This document shows, piece after piece, positions 25,934 to 32,546 of a stretch of DNA of 64,000 bases. The position numbers and the translations under genes are program-made. The notes under the pieces were generated by a model. That model was not told where the DNA came from. It did not search any database and saw nothing but the letters and a program-made list of their open reading frames with translations. The stretch comes from Mesorhizobium kowhaii. GTDB taxonomy: Bacteria > Pseudomonadota > Alphaproteobacteria > Rhizobiales > Rhizobiaceae. Each line of letters begins with the position of its first letter. Position 1 is the stretch's first letter. The stretch spans positions 124,001 to 188,000 of the forward strand of contig NZ_MZXV01000080.1 in NCBI RefSeq assembly GCF_003253745.1, given 5' to 3'.

Positions 25934-26160
25934 TCAAATCCCCAGTCTCTCGCCGCGATGCCTCGCACTGCAATACGTTGCGCCGCGATACGAATTTCGG
26001 CTTCGCCATATTAGCGAATGTGAAGGCCCCGGCCACGTTGGAAATTGACAAGCGCACCGGGATTTGTCGAGAGTGACCAATGCTCCGCCAATTGGCAGGG
26101 GCGGAGTGTCATGCTAGGCATTTTGACCAAGCGATAAAAAATAAGAGTGGGACAGGCTGC

Positions 26161-27693
26161 ATGGCGCAAGCCGCAATCGAGTTGATCGGCATCAACAAGA
26201 GTTTTGGCGCCGTGCGCGCCAACCGCGACATCAATCTGGAGATCGCACGCGGCACCATCCATGGCATTGTCGGCGAGAATGGCGCCGGCAAGTCGACGCT
26301 GATGTCGATCCTCTATGGGTTCTACCAGGCCGACAGCGGCGAGATCCGCGTCGGCGGCCAGCCGGCCTCGATCAAGACCCCCAATGACGCCATCGCGCTC
26401 GGCATCGGCATGGTGCATCAGCATTTCATGCTGGTCGACAATTTCACGGTGCTGGAAAACGTCATCCTCGGTGCCGAAAGCGATGCACTGCTGAAGCGAA
26501 GCATCGCCAAGGCGCGCTCCGAACTCGAACGCCTCGAACGCGAATACGGGCTGGAAGTCGATCCCGATGCGATCATCGAGGAACTGCCGGTCGGCCTTCA
26601 GCAGCGGGTGGAGATCCTCAAAGCGCTCTATCGCGGCGCCGAGATCCTGATCCTCGACGAGCCGACGGGCGTGCTGACACCAGCCGAGGCCGACCATCTG
26701 TTCCGCATCCTCAGGCAGTTGAAGGAACAGGGCAAGACGGTGGTGCTGATCACCCACAAATTGCGCGAGATCATGGCCATCACCGACACTGTGTCGGTGA
26801 TGCGTCAGGGCACGATGGTGGCGACGCGCGAGACCAAGAAGACCACCGTCGAGGAACTGGCCGAACTGATGGTCGGACGGCGCGTGCTGCTCAGGGTCGA
26901 AAAGGGCGAGGCCGACGCCGGCGCCATCAAGCTCGCGGTCAAGAACCTGACGGTGAAGGATACGCGCGGCGTCACCATGGTCGACGACATCTCCTTCGAC
27001 ATTCGCGCCGGCGAGATCGTCGGCATCGCCGGCGTCGCCGGCAACGGACAATCCGAACTGCTCGAGGCGATTTCCGGCATCAGGCGCGCCGTTTCCGGCT
27101 CGGTCATGCTCGACGGCAAGCCGATCGACCTGACGGGTGCCGCCGATCCCGGCGAACTGCGCGACCGCGGCCTCGCCCATGTGCCGGAGGATCGCCATCA
27201 TGTCGGGCTGGTGCTGGCCTTCGAGGAGAACGAGAATTCCATCCTCGGCTATCATGACGACCCGCGCTATTTGAAAGGCCCGTTCCTCAACATCGATGCC
27301 ATCCGAAACGATGCCAAGGACAAGATCGCCAAATACGACATCCGTCCGGCGGACTGCCGGTTGAAGACCGCCAATTTCTCCGGCGGCAACCAACAGAAGA
27401 TCGTACTGGCACGTGAGATGGAACAGGACCCCGGCGTGCTCATAGTCGGCCAGCCGACGCGCGGCGTCGATGTCGGCGCCATCGAGTTCATCCACAAGCG
27501 CCTGATCGCCATGCGCGACCAGGGCAAGGCGGTGCTGGTGGTGTCGGTCGAGCTGGACGAGATCCGTTCGCTCTCCGACCGCATCCTGGTGATGTTTGCT
27601 GGCCGCATCGTCGGCGAGCGCGGCCCGGAAGCAAGCGAAGGCGAGCTTGGCCTGCTGATGGCCGGCGTCGAGCATCAGGAGGCAGCCCAATGA
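26161..27693 (+). CDS. Nucleoside ABC transporter ATP-binding protein (two domains)
   Basis: Duplicated ABC ATPase of 510 residues that powers the BMP-type importer. The first domain has Walker A GENGAGKST (38-46) and ILILDEPTGVLTPAE, but a degenerate signature (LPVGLQQRVEIL). The second domain has a degenerate Walker A (GVAGNGQSELLE), an intact SGGNQQK signature and VGQPTRGVDVGA in place of a standard Walker B Glu. This asymmetric pattern is normal for the family. Its stop overlaps the first permease start (ATGA). Confidence 0.93.
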   Translation: MAQAAIELIGINKSFGAVRANRDINLEIARGTIHGIVGENGAGKSTLMSILYGFYQADSGEIRVGGQPASIKTPNDAIALGIGMVHQHFMLVDNFTVLENVILGAESDALLKRSIAKARSELERLEREYGLEVDPDAIIEELPVGLQQRVEILKALYRGAEILILDEPTGVLTPAEADHLFRILRQLKEQGKTVVLITHKLREIMAITDTVSVMRQGTMVATRETKKTTVEELAELMVGRRVLLRVEKGEADAGAIKLAVKNLTVKDTRGVTMVDDISFDIRAGEIVGIAGVAGNGQSELLEAISGIRRAVSGSVMLDGKPIDLTGAADPGELRDRGLAHVPEDRHHVGLVLAFEENENSILGYHDDPRYLKGPFLNIDAIRNDAKDKIAKYDIRPADCRLKTANFSGGNQQKIVLAREMEQDPGVLIVGQPTRGVDVGAIEFIHKRLIAMRDQGKAVLVVSVELDEIRSLSDRILVMFAGRIVGERGPEASEGELGLLMAGVEHQEAAQ

Positions 27694-28829
27694 GCACGCC
27701 TTACGCCAAATTGCCGGCCTGGGCCGACTACGGCCTGATCCCGGTGATCAACCTCTTCGTTGCTTTCGTCGTCGCCGGCTTCGTCGTGCTTCTGGTCGGC
27801 GAGAACCCGTTCCGCGCCGCCGTCATCCTGGTCGAGGGCGCCTTCGGCAAGGGCACAGGTATTGCCTTCACCCTGTTCTATGCCACCACATTCATCTTTA
27901 CCGGGCTTTCGGTGGCCGTGGCAGCGCATTGCGGCCTGTTCAACATCGGCACCGAGGGGCAGGCCTACATCGCCGGCCTCGGCATCGCCGTCGTCTGTCT
28001 TTCCTTCGACAGCGTGCTGCCGTGGTGGCTGACATTTCCGCTGGCCATCGTCGCTTCGGCGGTCGTGGGCGCGTTGTGGGGGCTTATCCCCGCCTATCTG
28101 CAGGCCAAGCGCGGCTCGCACATCGTCATCACCACCATCATGTTCAATTTCATCGCCGCCTCGATCATGGTTTACCTGCTGGTCGGCCCCTTGAAGCCGG
28201 CAGCCTCGCAAGCGCCGCAGACGCGCAACTTCTTCGCTGGCGCGGAATTGCCGAAGCTCAACTGGATCATCGAGCTGTTCGGCGCCAAGATCCGTTCGGC
28301 GCCGCTCAACATTTCCTTCCTGCTGGCGCTGATCATGGCCTTCCTGGTCTGGCTGCTGATCTGGCGCACCAAGCTCGGCTATGAGATGCGCACCTACGGT
28401 CACAGCCCGAAGGCGGCGCGCTATGCCGGCATTTCGGAAACCCGCATCATCATCACTGCTATGATGATCTCGGGCGCGCTCGCCGGAATGATGGCGCTCA
28501 ATCCGGTGATGGGCGACCAGCACAATGTCGCGATCGACTTTGTCTCCGGCGCCGGTTTCGTCGGCATCGCCGTGGCGCTGATGGGCCGCCTGCACCCGAT
28601 CGGCATCGTGCTGGCGGCGATCCTGTTCGGCATGCTCTACCAGGGCGGCGCCGAGCTTGCCTTCGAGATGCCGGCGATCAGCCGTGACATGATCGTCATC
28701 ATCCAGGGTCTGGTCATCCTGTTCGCCGGCGCGCTCGAGCACATGTTCCGGCCTTACATTCAGGCGCTGTTCGCCTCTTTCAGTCCGCGATCGGTCGGCA
28801 TGGAAGCGGTCAAGGGGAAGGGTGCCTGA
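27690..28829 (+). CDS. Nucleoside ABC transporter permease 1
   Basis: Inner-membrane permease of 379 residues with about nine hydrophobic segments, of the branched-chain/ribose permease superfamily. Recognisable stretches include FNIGTEGQAYIAGLG, AKRGSHIVITTIMFNFIA and YEMRTYGHSPKAARYAGIS, the last being the cytoplasmic coupling loop. It starts inside the ATPase gene's stop codon and is followed by permease 2 after one base, so the ATPase and two permeases are co-translated. Confidence 0.92.
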   Translation: MSTPYAKLPAWADYGLIPVINLFVAFVVAGFVVLLVGENPFRAAVILVEGAFGKGTGIAFTLFYATTFIFTGLSVAVAAHCGLFNIGTEGQAYIAGLGIAVVCLSFDSVLPWWLTFPLAIVASAVVGALWGLIPAYLQAKRGSHIVITTIMFNFIAASIMVYLLVGPLKPAASQAPQTRNFFAGAELPKLNWIIELFGAKIRSAPLNISFLLALIMAFLVWLLIWRTKLGYEMRTYGHSPKAARYAGISETRIIITAMMISGALAGMMALNPVMGDQHNVAIDFVSGAGFVGIAVALMGRLHPIGIVLAAILFGMLYQGGAELAFEMPAISRDMIVIIQGLVILFAGALEHMFRPYIQALFASFSPRSVGMEAVKGKGA

Positions 28830-28830
28830 A

Positions 28831-29802
28831 ATGGATGTGTTCAACGCAATCGTCCAGACATTGGACTCGACCATCCGCCTCTCGGTGCCGCTGCTGCTCG
28901 CCTGCCTCGCCGGCCTCTATTCGGAACGCGCCGGCATCTTCGACATCGGCCTCGAAGGCAAGATGCTGGTCGGCGCCTTCGCGGGTGCGGCGGCGGCTTC
29001 CGTGTTCCATTCGGCCTTTCTCGGCCTCGGCATGGCCATCCTGATCTCGGTCGCGTTTGCCATGATCCACGGCTTTGCCTCGATCACCCATCGCGGCAAC
29101 CAGATCGTCTCCGGCGTGGCGATCAATTTCATCGCCGCCGGATCGACCATCATCCTCGGCCAGGCCTGGTTCCAGCAAGGCGGGCGCACGCCGGCGCTGC
29201 AACCAGGTGAGCGCTTCGAGGCCATCACGTGGCCTGGCGCCGGTGCCATCCACGATGTGCCGATCCTAGGGCCGATCTATTCGGAACTGATCTCCGGCCA
29301 CTCGATCCTGGTCTATCTCGCTTTCCTGATGGTGCCGTTCACCTGGTGGGTGCTGTTTCGCACCCGCTTCGGCCTGCGGCTGCGCGCCGTCGGCGAGAAC
29401 CCGGCCGCGGTCGACACCGCCGGCATTTCCGTCGCCTGGCTGCGCTACCGGGCGCTGATCTGCACCGGCGTGCTGACCGGCATCGCCGGCGCCTATCTGT
29501 CGATGGTGCAGAATGGCGGCTTCGTGAAGGACATGACCGCCGGCAAGGGTTACATCGCGCTGGCGGCGCTGATCTTTGCCAAATGGAAGCCGGTCAACGC
29601 CATGTTCGCCTGCTTGCTGTTCGGTTTCCTCGACGCACTGTCGATCCGCTTGCAAGGCTCGCCGTTGCCCATCATCGGCAAGGTGCCGGTGCAGTTCATG
29701 CAGGCACTGCCTTACATCCTCACCGTCATCCTGCTCGCCGGCTTCATCGGCAAGGCGATCCCGCCGCGCGCCGGCGGCGTGCCTTACGTGAAGGAACGCT
29801 GA
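28831..29802 (+). CDS. Nucleoside ABC transporter permease 2
   Basis: Second permease subunit, 323 residues, about eight membrane segments. FDIGLEGKMLVGAFAGAAAA near the N-terminus and the coupling region LRLRAVGENPAAVDTAGISV are characteristic. Start ATG at 28831 has GGGAAGGG upstream; GTG at 28822 would overlap the previous stop. It pairs with permease 1 to form the channel of the nucleoside importer. A repeat element separates it from cdd. Confidence 0.92.
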   Translation: MDVFNAIVQTLDSTIRLSVPLLLACLAGLYSERAGIFDIGLEGKMLVGAFAGAAAASVFHSAFLGLGMAILISVAFAMIHGFASITHRGNQIVSGVAINFIAAGSTIILGQAWFQQGGRTPALQPGERFEAITWPGAGAIHDVPILGPIYSELISGHSILVYLAFLMVPFTWWVLFRTRFGLRLRAVGENPAAVDTAGISVAWLRYRALICTGVLTGIAGAYLSMVQNGGFVKDMTAGKGYIALAALIFAKWKPVNAMFACLLFGFLDALSIRLQGSPLPIIGKVPVQFMQALPYILTVILLAGFIGKAIPPRAGGVPYVKER

Positions 29803-29829: not shown

Positions 29830-29935
29830 GCATGTCGCTCAAAAGTGGTCCCGGTTTTGGGACAACGGACTTAAAGCGCGTCACAAGAATCCGTTTCGAC
29901 GCGACGCGCTTTAAGCGGGAGTGCCGGGTTTTGGA
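29830..29935. repeat. Intergenic repeat with 12-bp inverted ends
   Basis: AAAAGTGGTCCCGGTTTTGG (29840-29859) matches the second repeat type seen at 23281. It is followed by TTAAAGCGCGTC (29871-29882) and its exact complement GACGCGCTTTAA (29903-29914), a 12-bp stem with a 20-base loop. It lies between permease 2 and cdd and may act on the polycistronic mRNA. Confidence 0.7.
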
Positions 29936-29960: not shown

Positions 29961-30353
29961 ATGTCGCATGATCTGTTCGAAGCGGCCAAAGCTGCCATGT
30001 CCAAGGCCTATGCGCCCTATTCGAAGTTTCGGGTGGGCGCCGCCTTGCGCACCGAGGACGGGCGCGTCTTTGCCGGCGCCAATGTCGAAATCGCCTCCTA
30101 TCCGGAAGGCTGGTGCGCCGAGACCACCGCGCTTGGTCACTACATCATGGGTGGCGGCGGCAAGATCGTGGAAATCGCCGTCCTTGCCGAACGCATGGCG
30201 AAATGCTCGCCTTGCGGCGGCTGCCGGCAGCGGCTGGCCGAATTCTGCCGGCCGGAAACAAAACTCTATCTCTGCGACAATGCCGGCGTGGCCGAGACCG
30301 TGACCATGGGCGAGATGCTGCCCTACGGTTTCCGCGGCGACATTTTGAAATGA
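29961..30353 (+). CDS. cdd: Cytidine deaminase
   Basis: Homotetrameric-type cytidine deaminase, 130 residues, converting cytidine or deoxycytidine to uridine or deoxyuridine. Zinc ligands Cys52, Cys85 and Cys88 and the catalytic Glu54 are visible in GWCAETTALG and CSPCGGCRQ. The substrate-binding FRVGAALRTEDGRVFAGANVE is intact. Its stop TGA overlaps the first of four hexapeptide mini-ORFs that lead to the phosphorylase gene. Confidence 0.95.
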   Translation: MSHDLFEAAKAAMSKAYAPYSKFRVGAALRTEDGRVFAGANVEIASYPEGWCAETTALGHYIMGGGGKIVEIAVLAERMAKCSPCGGCRQRLAEFCRPETKLYLCDNAGVAETVTMGEMLPYGFRGDILK

Positions 30354-30421
30354 AGACCTGGTTGAAATGAAAACCTGGTTGAAATGAAGAACTGGCTGAA
30401 ATGAAGAGTTGGCTGCAATGA
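30350..30421 (+). repeat. Four 17-bp tandem repeats forming overlapping hexapeptide mini-ORFs
   Basis: Four imperfect 17-base units (consensus ATGAAGACCTGGTTGAA) span the gap between cdd and the phosphorylase gene. Each unit is a complete ORF of six codons: MKTWLK, MKTWLK, MKNWLK, MKSWLQ, at 30350-30370, 30367-30387, 30384-30404 and 30401-30421. Every stop overlaps the next start as ATGA, and the chain begins at the cdd stop and ends at the phosphorylase ATG. No Shine-Dalgarno lies between. The result is a run of five coupled restart sites. Confidence 0.85.
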
Positions 30422-31227
30422 CGGAAAAGGCGCTGGACCATCTCGTCGAACGGCTGGACGGCCTGGCGCCGTCGACCGCACTGGTGCTGGGTTCGGGCCT
30501 GGGCGGGCTGGTCGACCAGATCGAGGATCCGATCCGCGTTTCCTACGCCGACCTGCCGGGCTTTCCCAGAAGCGGCGTCACCGGCCATGCCGGCGAAGTG
30601 GTGGCGGGGCTGTTTGCCGGCGTGCCGGTGCTGATGCTGTCCGGCCGCGCCCACTACTACGAGCACGGCAACGCGGCTGCGATGCGGCCGGCACTGGAAG
30701 TGCTTGCCGGTATCGGCATCACAAAACTGATCCTCACCAATGCCGCCGGCTCGGTCGATCCCGACATGCCGCCGGGCTCGGTCATGCTGATATCGGACCA
30801 CATCAATTTCTCGGGCACCAATCCGCTGATTGGCGAGCCCAGCGACCGCCGCTTTGTCGGCCTGACCGAAGCCTATGACGCCGGCATCCGCAAGGCGATC
30901 GAACGCGCGGCGAAGGCGACCGGCACAGCACTTCACAAGGGCGTCTACATGTGGTTCTCGGGCCCTTGCTTCGAAACCCCCGCCGAAATCCGCATGGCGC
31001 GCATCATGGGCGCCAATGCGGTCGGCATGTCGACCGTGCCGGAGGTCATTCTTGCCCGCTTCCTCGGACTGCGCGTCGCCGCCTGCTCGGTCATCACCAA
31101 TTTGGCGGCCGGCATGACCGGCGCCGAGCTTTCGCACCAGGAGACCAAGGACATGGCGCCGGTCGGTGGCGCGCGGCTGGCGACGATCCTGCAGCGCGTG
31201 TTCCGCGACGGACTGCTGGAGAGCTGA
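30418..31227 (+). CDS. Purine-nucleoside phosphorylase
   Basis: Family 2 (PNP/MTAP, PunA/XapA-like) phosphorylase of 269 residues, cleaving purine nucleosides with phosphate to base and (deoxy)ribose 1-phosphate. Phosphate-binding GSGLGGLVDQIE, GRAHYYEHGNAAAMRP, LTNAAGSV and the base pocket WFSGPCFETPAEIRM plus SVITNLAAGM are all present. ATG at 30418 overlaps the last mini-ORF stop; the stop overlaps deoA as TGATG. A product of deoA and this enzyme, deoxyribose or ribose phosphate, links to rbsK at 58.5 kb. Confidence 0.93.
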   Translation: MTEKALDHLVERLDGLAPSTALVLGSGLGGLVDQIEDPIRVSYADLPGFPRSGVTGHAGEVVAGLFAGVPVLMLSGRAHYYEHGNAAAMRPALEVLAGIGITKLILTNAAGSVDPDMPPGSVMLISDHINFSGTNPLIGEPSDRRFVGLTEAYDAGIRKAIERAAKATGTALHKGVYMWFSGPCFETPAEIRMARIMGANAVGMSTVPEVILARFLGLRVAACSVITNLAAGMTGAELSHQETKDMAPVGGARLATILQRVFRDGLLES

Positions 31228-32546
31228 TGCTTCCCCAGGAAATCATCCGACGCAAGCGCGATGGCCTGAAACTGTCGGCGCAGGAGATCGCCGGCTTCGT
31301 CGAGGGCGTCACCGAAGGGGTCGTTTCGGACGGCCAGGTCGGCGCCTTCGCCATGGCGGTGTTCTTCAACAGTATGAGCCGCGACGAGGCCGTGGCGCTG
31401 ACACTGGCGATGCGCGATTCCGGTGACGTGCTCGACTGGTCGGACCTGCCCGGCCCGGTCACCGACAAGCATTCGACAGGCGGCGTCGGCGACAATGTTT
31501 CGCTGATGCTGGCGCCGATCGTCGCCGCCTGCGGCGCTTATGTGCCGATGATTTCCGGCCGTGGCCTTGGCCATACCGGCGGCACGCTGGACAAAATGGA
31601 TGCCATCCCCGGCTATGCCAGCCAGCCCGATATCGCGCTGTTTCGCAAGGCTGTGCTTGAAACCGGTTGCGCCATCATCGGCCAGACCGCCGACCTCGCG
31701 CCGGCCGATCGCCGGCTCTACGCGATCCGCGATGTCACCGGCACGGTCGAATCGGTGCCGCTGATCACCGCTTCGATCCTGTCGAAGAAGCTGGCGGCCG
31801 GGCTGCAATCGCTGGTGCTCGACGTCAAGGTCGGCAACGGCGCCTTCATGGAAAAGTCACGCGATGCGACCGCACTCGCCAGCAGCCTTGTCGAGATCGC
31901 CAATGGTGCCGGGTTGAAGGCCTCGGCGTTGATCACCGGCATGAACGAGCCGCTGGCGTCGGCCGCCGGCAACGCGGTTGAGGTGCGCAACGCCGTCGAT
32001 TTCCTCACCGGCCGTCTTCGTGATCGTCGGCTGGAAGACGTGACGCTGGCGCTCGCCGCCGAGATGCTGCAGTCGGCAGGACTGGTGTCGTCCAACCAGG
32101 ATGGCATGCGGCGCGCCACTGAGACGCTTGCCAGCGGCCGCGCCGCCGCCACTTTCGCGCGCATGGTCGCCGCGCTCGGCGGCCCCACCGATTTCATCGA
32201 GAAGCCAGAAAAATACCTGCCGGAAGCGGCGACCGAGTTTGCCGTCAAGGCGACCGAAAACGGCTTCGTCACCGGCATAGCGACCCGCGACATCGGGCTC
32301 GCGGTGGTTGGCCTGGGAGGCGGACGCACGCGGCCGGACGACAAGGTCGACCCCGCGGTCGGTATCACCAGGCTGCTGCCGGTCGGCGCGGAGGTTCGGA
32401 CTGGCGAGCCGCTGGCGCTGGTCCATGCCCGCTCATTGGCCGATGCCGAGGCGGCCGCCGCCGCCGTGATTTCGGCCTATGCGATCGGGGCTTCGAAGCC
32501 GGCCGCCGACAAGTCGGTCATCCGGCGGATTCTTCCGCGGGGCTAG
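31227..32546 (+). CDS. deoA: Thymidine phosphorylase
   Basis: Cleaves thymidine and deoxyuridine to base and 2-deoxyribose 1-phosphate. The 439-residue protein has the phosphate-binding KHSTGGVGDNVSLMLAP, SGRGLGHTGGTLDKM and the lysine region VGNGAFMEKSRDATALA typical of the family. It begins within the phosphorylase stop codon (TGATG), so the last three enzymes of the salvage operon are co-translated. Its end abuts an intergenic repeat. Confidence 0.95.
   Translation: MLPQEIIRRKRDGLKLSAQEIAGFVEGVTEGVVSDGQVGAFAMAVFFNSMSRDEAVALTLAMRDSGDVLDWSDLPGPVTDKHSTGGVGDNVSLMLAPIVAACGAYVPMISGRGLGHTGGTLDKMDAIPGYASQPDIALFRKAVLETGCAIIGQTADLAPADRRLYAIRDVTGTVESVPLITASILSKKLAAGLQSLVLDVKVGNGAFMEKSRDATALASSLVEIANGAGLKASALITGMNEPLASAAGNAVEVRNAVDFLTGRLRDRRLEDVTLALAAEMLQSAGLVSSNQDGMRRATETLASGRAAATFARMVAALGGPTDFIEKPEKYLPEAATEFAVKATENGFVTGIATRDIGLAVVGLGGGRTRPDDKVDPAVGITRLLPVGAEVRTGEPLALVHARSLADAEAAAAAVISAYAIGASKPAADKSVIRRILPRG

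Follow-up and report, generated by a model that had tools for sequence, protein, structure and literature searches.

A ladder of overlapping 17-nt mini-ORFs between cdd and punA in Mesorhizobium: probable junction duplications and a possible translational relay

Between the cytidine deaminase gene (cdd) and the purine-nucleoside phosphorylase gene (punA) of Mesorhizobium kowhaii lies a chain of tiny ORFs, each ending where the next begins. Does this chain pass ribosomes from one gene to the other, or is it simply what a tandem repeat of this length looks like when it grows at a gene junction? We examined the locus in a 64,000-nt stretch of the genome (the window), compared the junction across relatives, and looked for similar chains at other gene borders.

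The cdd–punA junction in the window

The four overlapping 17-base mini-ORFs reported by the initial annotation are exact on direct reading: linked by ATGA overlaps, they run from the cdd stop to the punA start (Table 1). Tandem Repeats Finder gives the array a period of 17, 3.7–4.5 copies and a score of 103–105, the top among the 18 rows for the window. The junction thus carries the stop/start overlap (ATGA or TGATG) that is a feature of termination–reinitiation coupling. The next junction has no ladder; there the punA stop and the ATG of the deoA-like gene overlap as TGATG.

Table 1. Positions of features around the cdd–punA junction, in window coordinates
Feature	Description	Position	Strand	Profile match
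ABC transporter	ATPase and two permeases, upstream of cdd	26080..29802		top-ranking models, none reaching its cut-off, are for putative B6 transporter subunits
Inverted repeat	imperfect (cttaaagcgcgtc ... gacgcgctttaag), between ABC permease gene and cdd	29870..29915
cdd	cytidine deaminase	29961..30353	+	NCBIfam TIGR01354, 156.3 bits (cut-off 113.65)
cdd stop	TGA, overlapping the start of the first mini-ORF	30351..30353
Ladder	four 17-bp ORFs	30350..30417
Unit 1	mini-ORF MKTWLK, TGA common to unit 2	30350..30366	+
Unit 2	mini-ORF MKTWLK	30367..30383	+
Unit 3	mini-ORF MKNWLK	30384..30400	+
Unit 4	mini-ORF MKSWLQ, TGA inside the ATGA of the punA start	30401..30417	+
punA start	ATG, its ATGA closing at 30421	30418..30420
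punA	purine-nucleoside phosphorylase	30418..31227	+	NCBIfam TIGR01698, 346.6 bits (cut-off 302.6)
deoA-like	thymidine phosphorylase	31227..32546	+	TIGR02643, 731.9 bits

The array is a single-locus feature of its genome. Searching the 8.06-Mb assembly for the unit pattern with up to two mismatches returned four exact matches, all at cdd–punA, and two further places with two mismatches each. Four ATGA at 17-nt spacing do not occur elsewhere in the genome, and the reversed control gave 0. Nor is there a general 17-bp repeat habit in the 864 kb surveyed (800 kb of contig C12 plus the window): among arrays with a score of at least 60 and at least 2.5 copies, all periods but three (8, 17 and 29) are multiples of 3, and the 17 is the window array. 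A crude gene-caller scan of the same 864 kb for chains was set aside because it missed the cdd–punA ladder itself; it returned 17 chains of 1–3 mini-ORFs, mostly not ladder-like, and two single 17-nt steps.

Variation across relatives and other gene borders

PunA was found in 142 of the 146 genomes of the genus, and 141 of these supplied cdd–punA loci (G072, split in two fragments, was omitted). Two loci were excluded, L010 on a contig without cdd and L146 without a usable punA start, leaving 139 to evaluate. In 49 of these, cdd and punA form a plain ATGA overlap; the other 90 have an insert, and in 64 its length is an exact multiple of 17 nt. Insert lengths (number of loci) are 14 (2), 16 (5), 17 (34), 18 (1), 23 (1), 33 (1), 34 (18), 35 (5), 37 (1), 50 (2), 51 (9), 52 (4), 53 (1), 60 (1), 68 (2), 85 (1), 87 (1) and 122 nt (1), so that species range from 0 to 122 nt, or about 7 units. 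Among the matches listed, M. sangaii has 87 nt, M. ciceri 34, M. metallidurans 17 and M. mediterraneum 0. Units are 17 nt long in the window, with lengths of 14, 15, 16, 18 nt and others in relatives.

The plain overlap is likely the ancestral state. Among the matches listed, all 24 evaluable loci whose PunA is 71–83% identical have it (L264 and L266–L288, from Nitratireductor, Chelativorans, Pseudaminobacter, Aliihoeflea, Tianweitania, other Mesorhizobium and further Rhizobiaceae), as does L262; M. composti (L263, 79% PunA identity) has a 14-nt insert. On a gene tree of 137 cdd+punA rows, at least 52 changes of insert length are needed, with 18 changes of presence and 11 of strict relay status (defined below). 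The variable repeat number suggested by the initial annotation is therefore borne out between species, and the junction has the defining feature of a VNTR, tandem copies whose number differs between lineages, here seen in one genome per species.

Some loci depart from the 17-nt scheme. The 18-nt units of L008, L018, L087 and L091 merge into ORFs of 12 or 18 codons, which end on an ATGA further down, and L012 has lost one internal ATGA, its longer ORF now being closed by a TGATG on the punA start; these are exceptions that fit a relay. L143 has one 14-nt unit. In L142, four 15-nt units at the same place lengthen PunA in frame with MNRGD repeats, which is another solution. In L145, L146 and L147 (G052, G053 and G051) the punA matches come in pieces or recur in part, which would suit a broken or partially duplicated gene.

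The chain is not special to cdd–punA: the same build occurs at other gene borders in Mesorhizobium. Four ATGA at 17-nt spacing were found in 25 of the 146 genomes (35 matches), compared with 6 matches in 3 genomes for the control. Among 247 genomes sampled from the family, 243 of which lie outside the genus, there was one outsider match, and its context is not a gene border. In this search cdd–punA accounts for 11 genomes, and 17-nt ladders lead from the stop of one long ORF to the start of another at six other gene pairs: surE–pcm (4 genomes), panB–panC (3), RpiR regulator–PfkB kinase (1), rluB–rsmD (1) and two ABC permease pairs (1 each). Families were assigned from Pfam or NCBIfam; for RluB the match goes no further than a pseudouridine synthase with an S4 domain, and for the permeases no further than BPD_transp_1. 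On review, the sequences matched in G006 and G040 turned out not to be repeats, L152 does not sit at a gene junction, L153 lacks a long downstream ORF, and L171 (exonuclease VII large subunit to S58 peptidase) is a degenerate array; the review covered all but two of the 35 matches (G033:C30 and G096:C70).

The excess at 17 nt is relative to the four other periods that were run (14, 16, 18 and 20), each over 146 genomes: 25 genomes at 17 nt, 3 at 14, 6 at 16, 18 at 18 and 4 at 20. By eye, the 18-nt matches are mostly in-frame coding repeats. The 14-nt matches are stop-to-start ladders in all three genomes, at pdxA–ksgA in two and at an ABC–ABC pair in the third. None of the four 20-nt or five 16-nt loci examined is a stop-to-start ladder. 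A relay-like frame in L189 (16 nt) was rejected, as Pfam places a response regulator in another frame that ends inside the first unit. In both L189 and L190, 16-nt ATGA arrays lie just before histidine kinase-like genes (by Pfam for L189), not from stop to start. The reversed-pattern control is no guide at 14 and 16 nt because it matches very often at these periods. Many genomes of the genus are very rich in AGTA spaced by 14 or 16 nt, for which simple repeats of 7 or 8 bp may be responsible. Arrays of the 8-mer ATGATTCC were seen in L192 and L195–L197 (G085:C4:5701-5776, with more to 5953).

Two of these pairs, picked because ladders had already been seen there, served as replicates in samples weighted to the close relatives of the query; in 40 of the replicate loci the upstream frame was picked by length, not homology. 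The 51 rluB–rsmD loci comprise 30 plain ATGA overlaps, 2 TAATG or TGATG, 4 longer overlaps and 15 inserts (17 nt seven times, 34 nt four times and 51 nt once, plus 33, 35 and 21 nt). With NTG starts, 12 of the 15 inserts relay by overlap, and all 15 do if 0-nt spacing is permitted. The 50 panB–panC loci comprise 38 plain overlaps, 8 inserts, L384 (a 3-nt start ambiguity with no insert) and 3 others (L418, truncated; L434 and L436, with small gaps and no ladder). All 8 panB–panC inserts are relayed and all 8 count as multiples of 17 once a 3-nt start offset is applied to L386; the panB frame of L377 itself seems to continue through an additional 16-nt unit. Mapped onto the cdd+punA tree, ladders were gained or lost at least 7 times at rluB–rsmD (48 loci) and at least 6 times at panB–panC (46 loci).

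Units often resemble the junction at which they sit, joining the first bases of the downstream gene to the last bases of the upstream gene. The unit is an exact copy of this kind at panB–panC (17/17) and at an ABC–ABC pair (14/14). The match exceeds that of random units (P about 0.01 or less) at a malF–malG-like pair, surE–pcm, RpiR–PfkB and the rluB–rsmD of the window's genome, with P 0.02 at the pdxA–ksgA of L178. It is not significant at cdd–punA (11/17, P 0.08), a potB–potC-like pair, the rluB–rsmD of L159 and the pdxA–ksgA of L179. These P values are somewhat generous, since the best of several units was set against one random unit. On such sequence comparisons, local tandem duplication is the likely source of the units, not transposition.

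Are the chains maintained?

Whenever 17 bp are duplicated across an ATGA overlap, a chain results automatically, so a neat reading pattern proves little by itself and the relay is in part a mutational by-product. The translational-coupling ladder of the initial annotation stands as a description of how the sequence reads; its pattern alone is weak proof of coupling, and its peptide is not conserved. What bears on the question is whether chains survive as arrays change. Under a strict definition of relay (ATG starts, overlap only), 75 of the 90 inserts reach punA and two more are in-frame fusions, or 77 in all; under a loose one (NTG starts, stop-to-start spacing of −4 to +1), 84 do, plus three fusions. 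The relay is not indispensable, as 13 inserts fail the strict form and three (L020, L039 and L046) the loose form. Shuffled inserts relay far less often under the strict definition, with a mean of 41.3 (maximum 49) against 77 for all 90 inserts, and a mean of 9.4 (maximum 17 in 300 shuffles) against 40 for the 47 inserts of at least 30 nt, though this null ignores shared descent.

Individual bases show the same tendency. Taking column homology between arrays as given, the internal ATGA columns of the 34-, 51- and 68-nt classes changed in 3 steps, each of them within the 51-nt class, whereas permutations averaged 15.4 (p=1.1e-4). In punA codon 2, base 1 is the A that completes the last TGA; across 89 insert rows it changes 0 times, compared with 10 changes at base 2 and 12 at base 3. 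Zero change at base 1 is not rare alone (37 of 259 other punA codons), but the three other codons with at least 9 base-2 changes have 6, 13 and 17 changes at base 1, and none is unchanged. The third base of the last cdd codon is A in 86 of 90 insert rows; AAA makes up 272 of the 739 Lys codons in the cdd body (all rows), and AAG is the commoner codon in the bodies of both genes. That base changes 4 times against a mean of 8.9 for other third bases, which is weak evidence because 35 of the 123 other cdd third bases change as little. The initial annotation had called for this comparison of repeats and reading patterns and had set breakage at neutral rates as the outcome that would count against it; starts and stops are instead kept more than other bases.

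The encoded peptide fares differently. Codons 3, 4 and 6 vary freely across relatives, on which ground a function of the peptide was rejected. The Trp–Leu pair noted as intact is so in the source genome only, as the Trp is often Gly, Arg or another residue in relatives. Among 78 distinct units, some of them out of register, 57 have Leu at codon 5 and 61 have a GG pair 5 nt before the next ATG.

Several other explanations were weighed against these results. A neutral VNTR, in which 17-bp duplications at the junction produce the chain as a by-product of their length and nothing keeps it, would account for the automatic origin of the pattern, the wide copy-number variation and the three clear relay breaks. 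It would not lead one to expect conserved internal ATGA (p about 1e-4), an invariant first base beside two variable ones in punA codon 2, or so many relays among the longer inserts, and we consider it unlikely. An adaptive rheostat is compatible with the relay: each restart would cost ribosomes, copy number would set the PunA:Cdd ratio, and slippage would provide evolvability. The relay is indeed largely kept while insert length varies so widely between species, but copy number would be silent if reinitiation were near-perfect, and the presence of ladders is not obviously coordinated between loci within one genome; on balance this is an improbable addition, slightly less so than neutrality.

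It is quite improbable that the units act as an amplifier, their ATGs attracting ribosomes of their own and passing them to punA so that more units give more PunA. The GG pair could be a weak Shine–Dalgarno sequence, and predicted pairing before punA in relatives with inserts (median −4.9 kcal/mol) is stronger than random (median −3.0), as it is in those without inserts (−5.7). In the window, however, predicted pairing upstream of the five ATGs ranges from −2.1 to −4.2, close to the random median; the −4.2 duplex before punA, compared with −6.6 for cdd, is not a strong predicted Shine–Dalgarno site (all duplexes are with an anti-Shine–Dalgarno tail). The statement that no ribosome-binding site lies in the chain thus holds for the window to the extent that no strong site is predicted before punA, and is less clear for relatives. 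A regulatory leader peptide or RNA switch, sensing something through the hexapeptides or an RNA fold, could draw on the repetition of MKxWLK in the source genome and on the frequent Leu5; it is made very improbable by the freely changing codons and by a fold z-score of 0.02, which supports no structure in the window's ladder copy when folded alone. Least credible of all is a dispersed MIRU-type mobile element that inserts at ATGA sites. Ladders do occur at several gene borders, but their unit sequences differ from border to border, several match their own flanks, and the cdd–punA unit is found nowhere else in its genome without mismatch; sequence-related units are confined to that one locus, and we rejected this explanation.

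A proposed relay and its nearest known relatives

We think it probable, from these sequence patterns, that junction duplications recur and survive because they rebuild a termination–reinitiation relay. At the ancestral overlap, ribosomes ending cdd would restart immediately on punA. A 17-bp tandem duplication across the ATGA would insert a six-codon ORF, and because 17 mod 3 is 2, each copy rebuilds the stop/start overlap. A ribosome would then be passed stepwise from unit to unit until punA, presumably with one restart per unit, while slippage alters copy number and selection purges most relay-breaking forms. What we infer is that ribosomes really move along the chain, that punA relies on it, and what makes 17 the favoured length. 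More tentatively, and with the odds against it, the ladders may form a genus-enriched class of 17-nt stop/start duplications that arise independently at many operon borders. Every copy would contribute one more restart, giving a slippage-driven, evolvable rheostat for protein ratios, and the needs of the restarting ribosome would dictate the length of 17 nt (six codons).

How much a relay would matter depends on how coupling responds to distance. The parts of PMC10666635 drawn on here report that coupling needs overlaps or very short distances: it drops steeply with intergenic distance at six gene pairs and is almost lost at ~20 nt, one pair still reinitiating over 14–15 nt, and the last 15 nt of the upstream gene are enough for reinitiation in an E. 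coli reporter. If such steep dependence is valid here, 17 nt of plain spacer would weaken coupling, an effect that a spacer made of mini-ORFs would avoid. A passage of PMC12548453, citing other E. coli work, describes coupling as unchanged to +3 or +25 nt, or declining only over +50 to +350 nt, in which case a plain spacer might not uncouple cdd and punA. The same passage leaves unsettled how ribosomes reach the next gene: the same ribosome may reinitiate or scan, or the RNA may be unfolded.

The nearest known kind of element is the MIRU repeat of mycobacteria, which the ladders resemble in −4 coupling; ladders probably arise locally and are not dispersed, so they are not MIRUs. MIRUs are 53–101 bp in length. 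The MIRU passage of PMC12548453, which cites Supply et al. 1997 as its source, describes a short repeat with an ORF at a start codon, coupled at −4 nt, apparently mobile and likely of little effect on expression. The cdd–punA unit likewise carries an ORF joined to its neighbours by NTGA overlaps, whereas the 17-nt units differ by junction, several being junction copies, and are shorter. Every ladder step uses the ATGA overlap of termination–reinitiation coupling (Huber et al. 2019, 2023); the cases in the parts of PMC10666635 drawn on are single gene pairs, whereas here a series of six-codon ORFs would relay. Intergenic VNTRs share the tandem copies, variable number and drifting units, but the internal ATGA of the ladder respects a reading relay. 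Upstream of txe, a minigene of two codons influences in cis how the following gene is translated (PMC8708949); it is similar in that a mini-ORF affects its neighbour and frame and distance matter; it differs in having two codons, in not being described as a repeat in the portion consulted, and in its proposed action through mRNA stability. Unlike a leader peptide or attenuator, the ladder has no conserved peptide, and folding of the window's copy gave no support for RNA structure. A search of the open-access literature, judged by title and abstract and with subscription journals mostly outside its scope, found no description of such ladders.

A natural series of 0, 1, 2, 3 and more restarts between the same two genes is a ready-made experiment, and output as a function of copy number across ladders would yield the efficiency of reinitiation per step. 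The ladders may also illustrate how an operon junction absorbs extra DNA without obvious loss of coupling.

Some smaller features of the window and its genome were also seen. From its context, the ABC transporter upstream of cdd is likelier a nucleoside transporter than the B6 transporter of its best models, and the inverted repeat between it and cdd is perhaps a small repeat element or operator. The genome has a second 17-nt ladder, of two units, at rluB–rsmD (L337, G000:C3:235091-235642, − strand, and L331). In L336, at about 1500–1540, two 17-nt ATGA units lie directly before a 501-codon ORF and are also crossed by an upstream reading frame.
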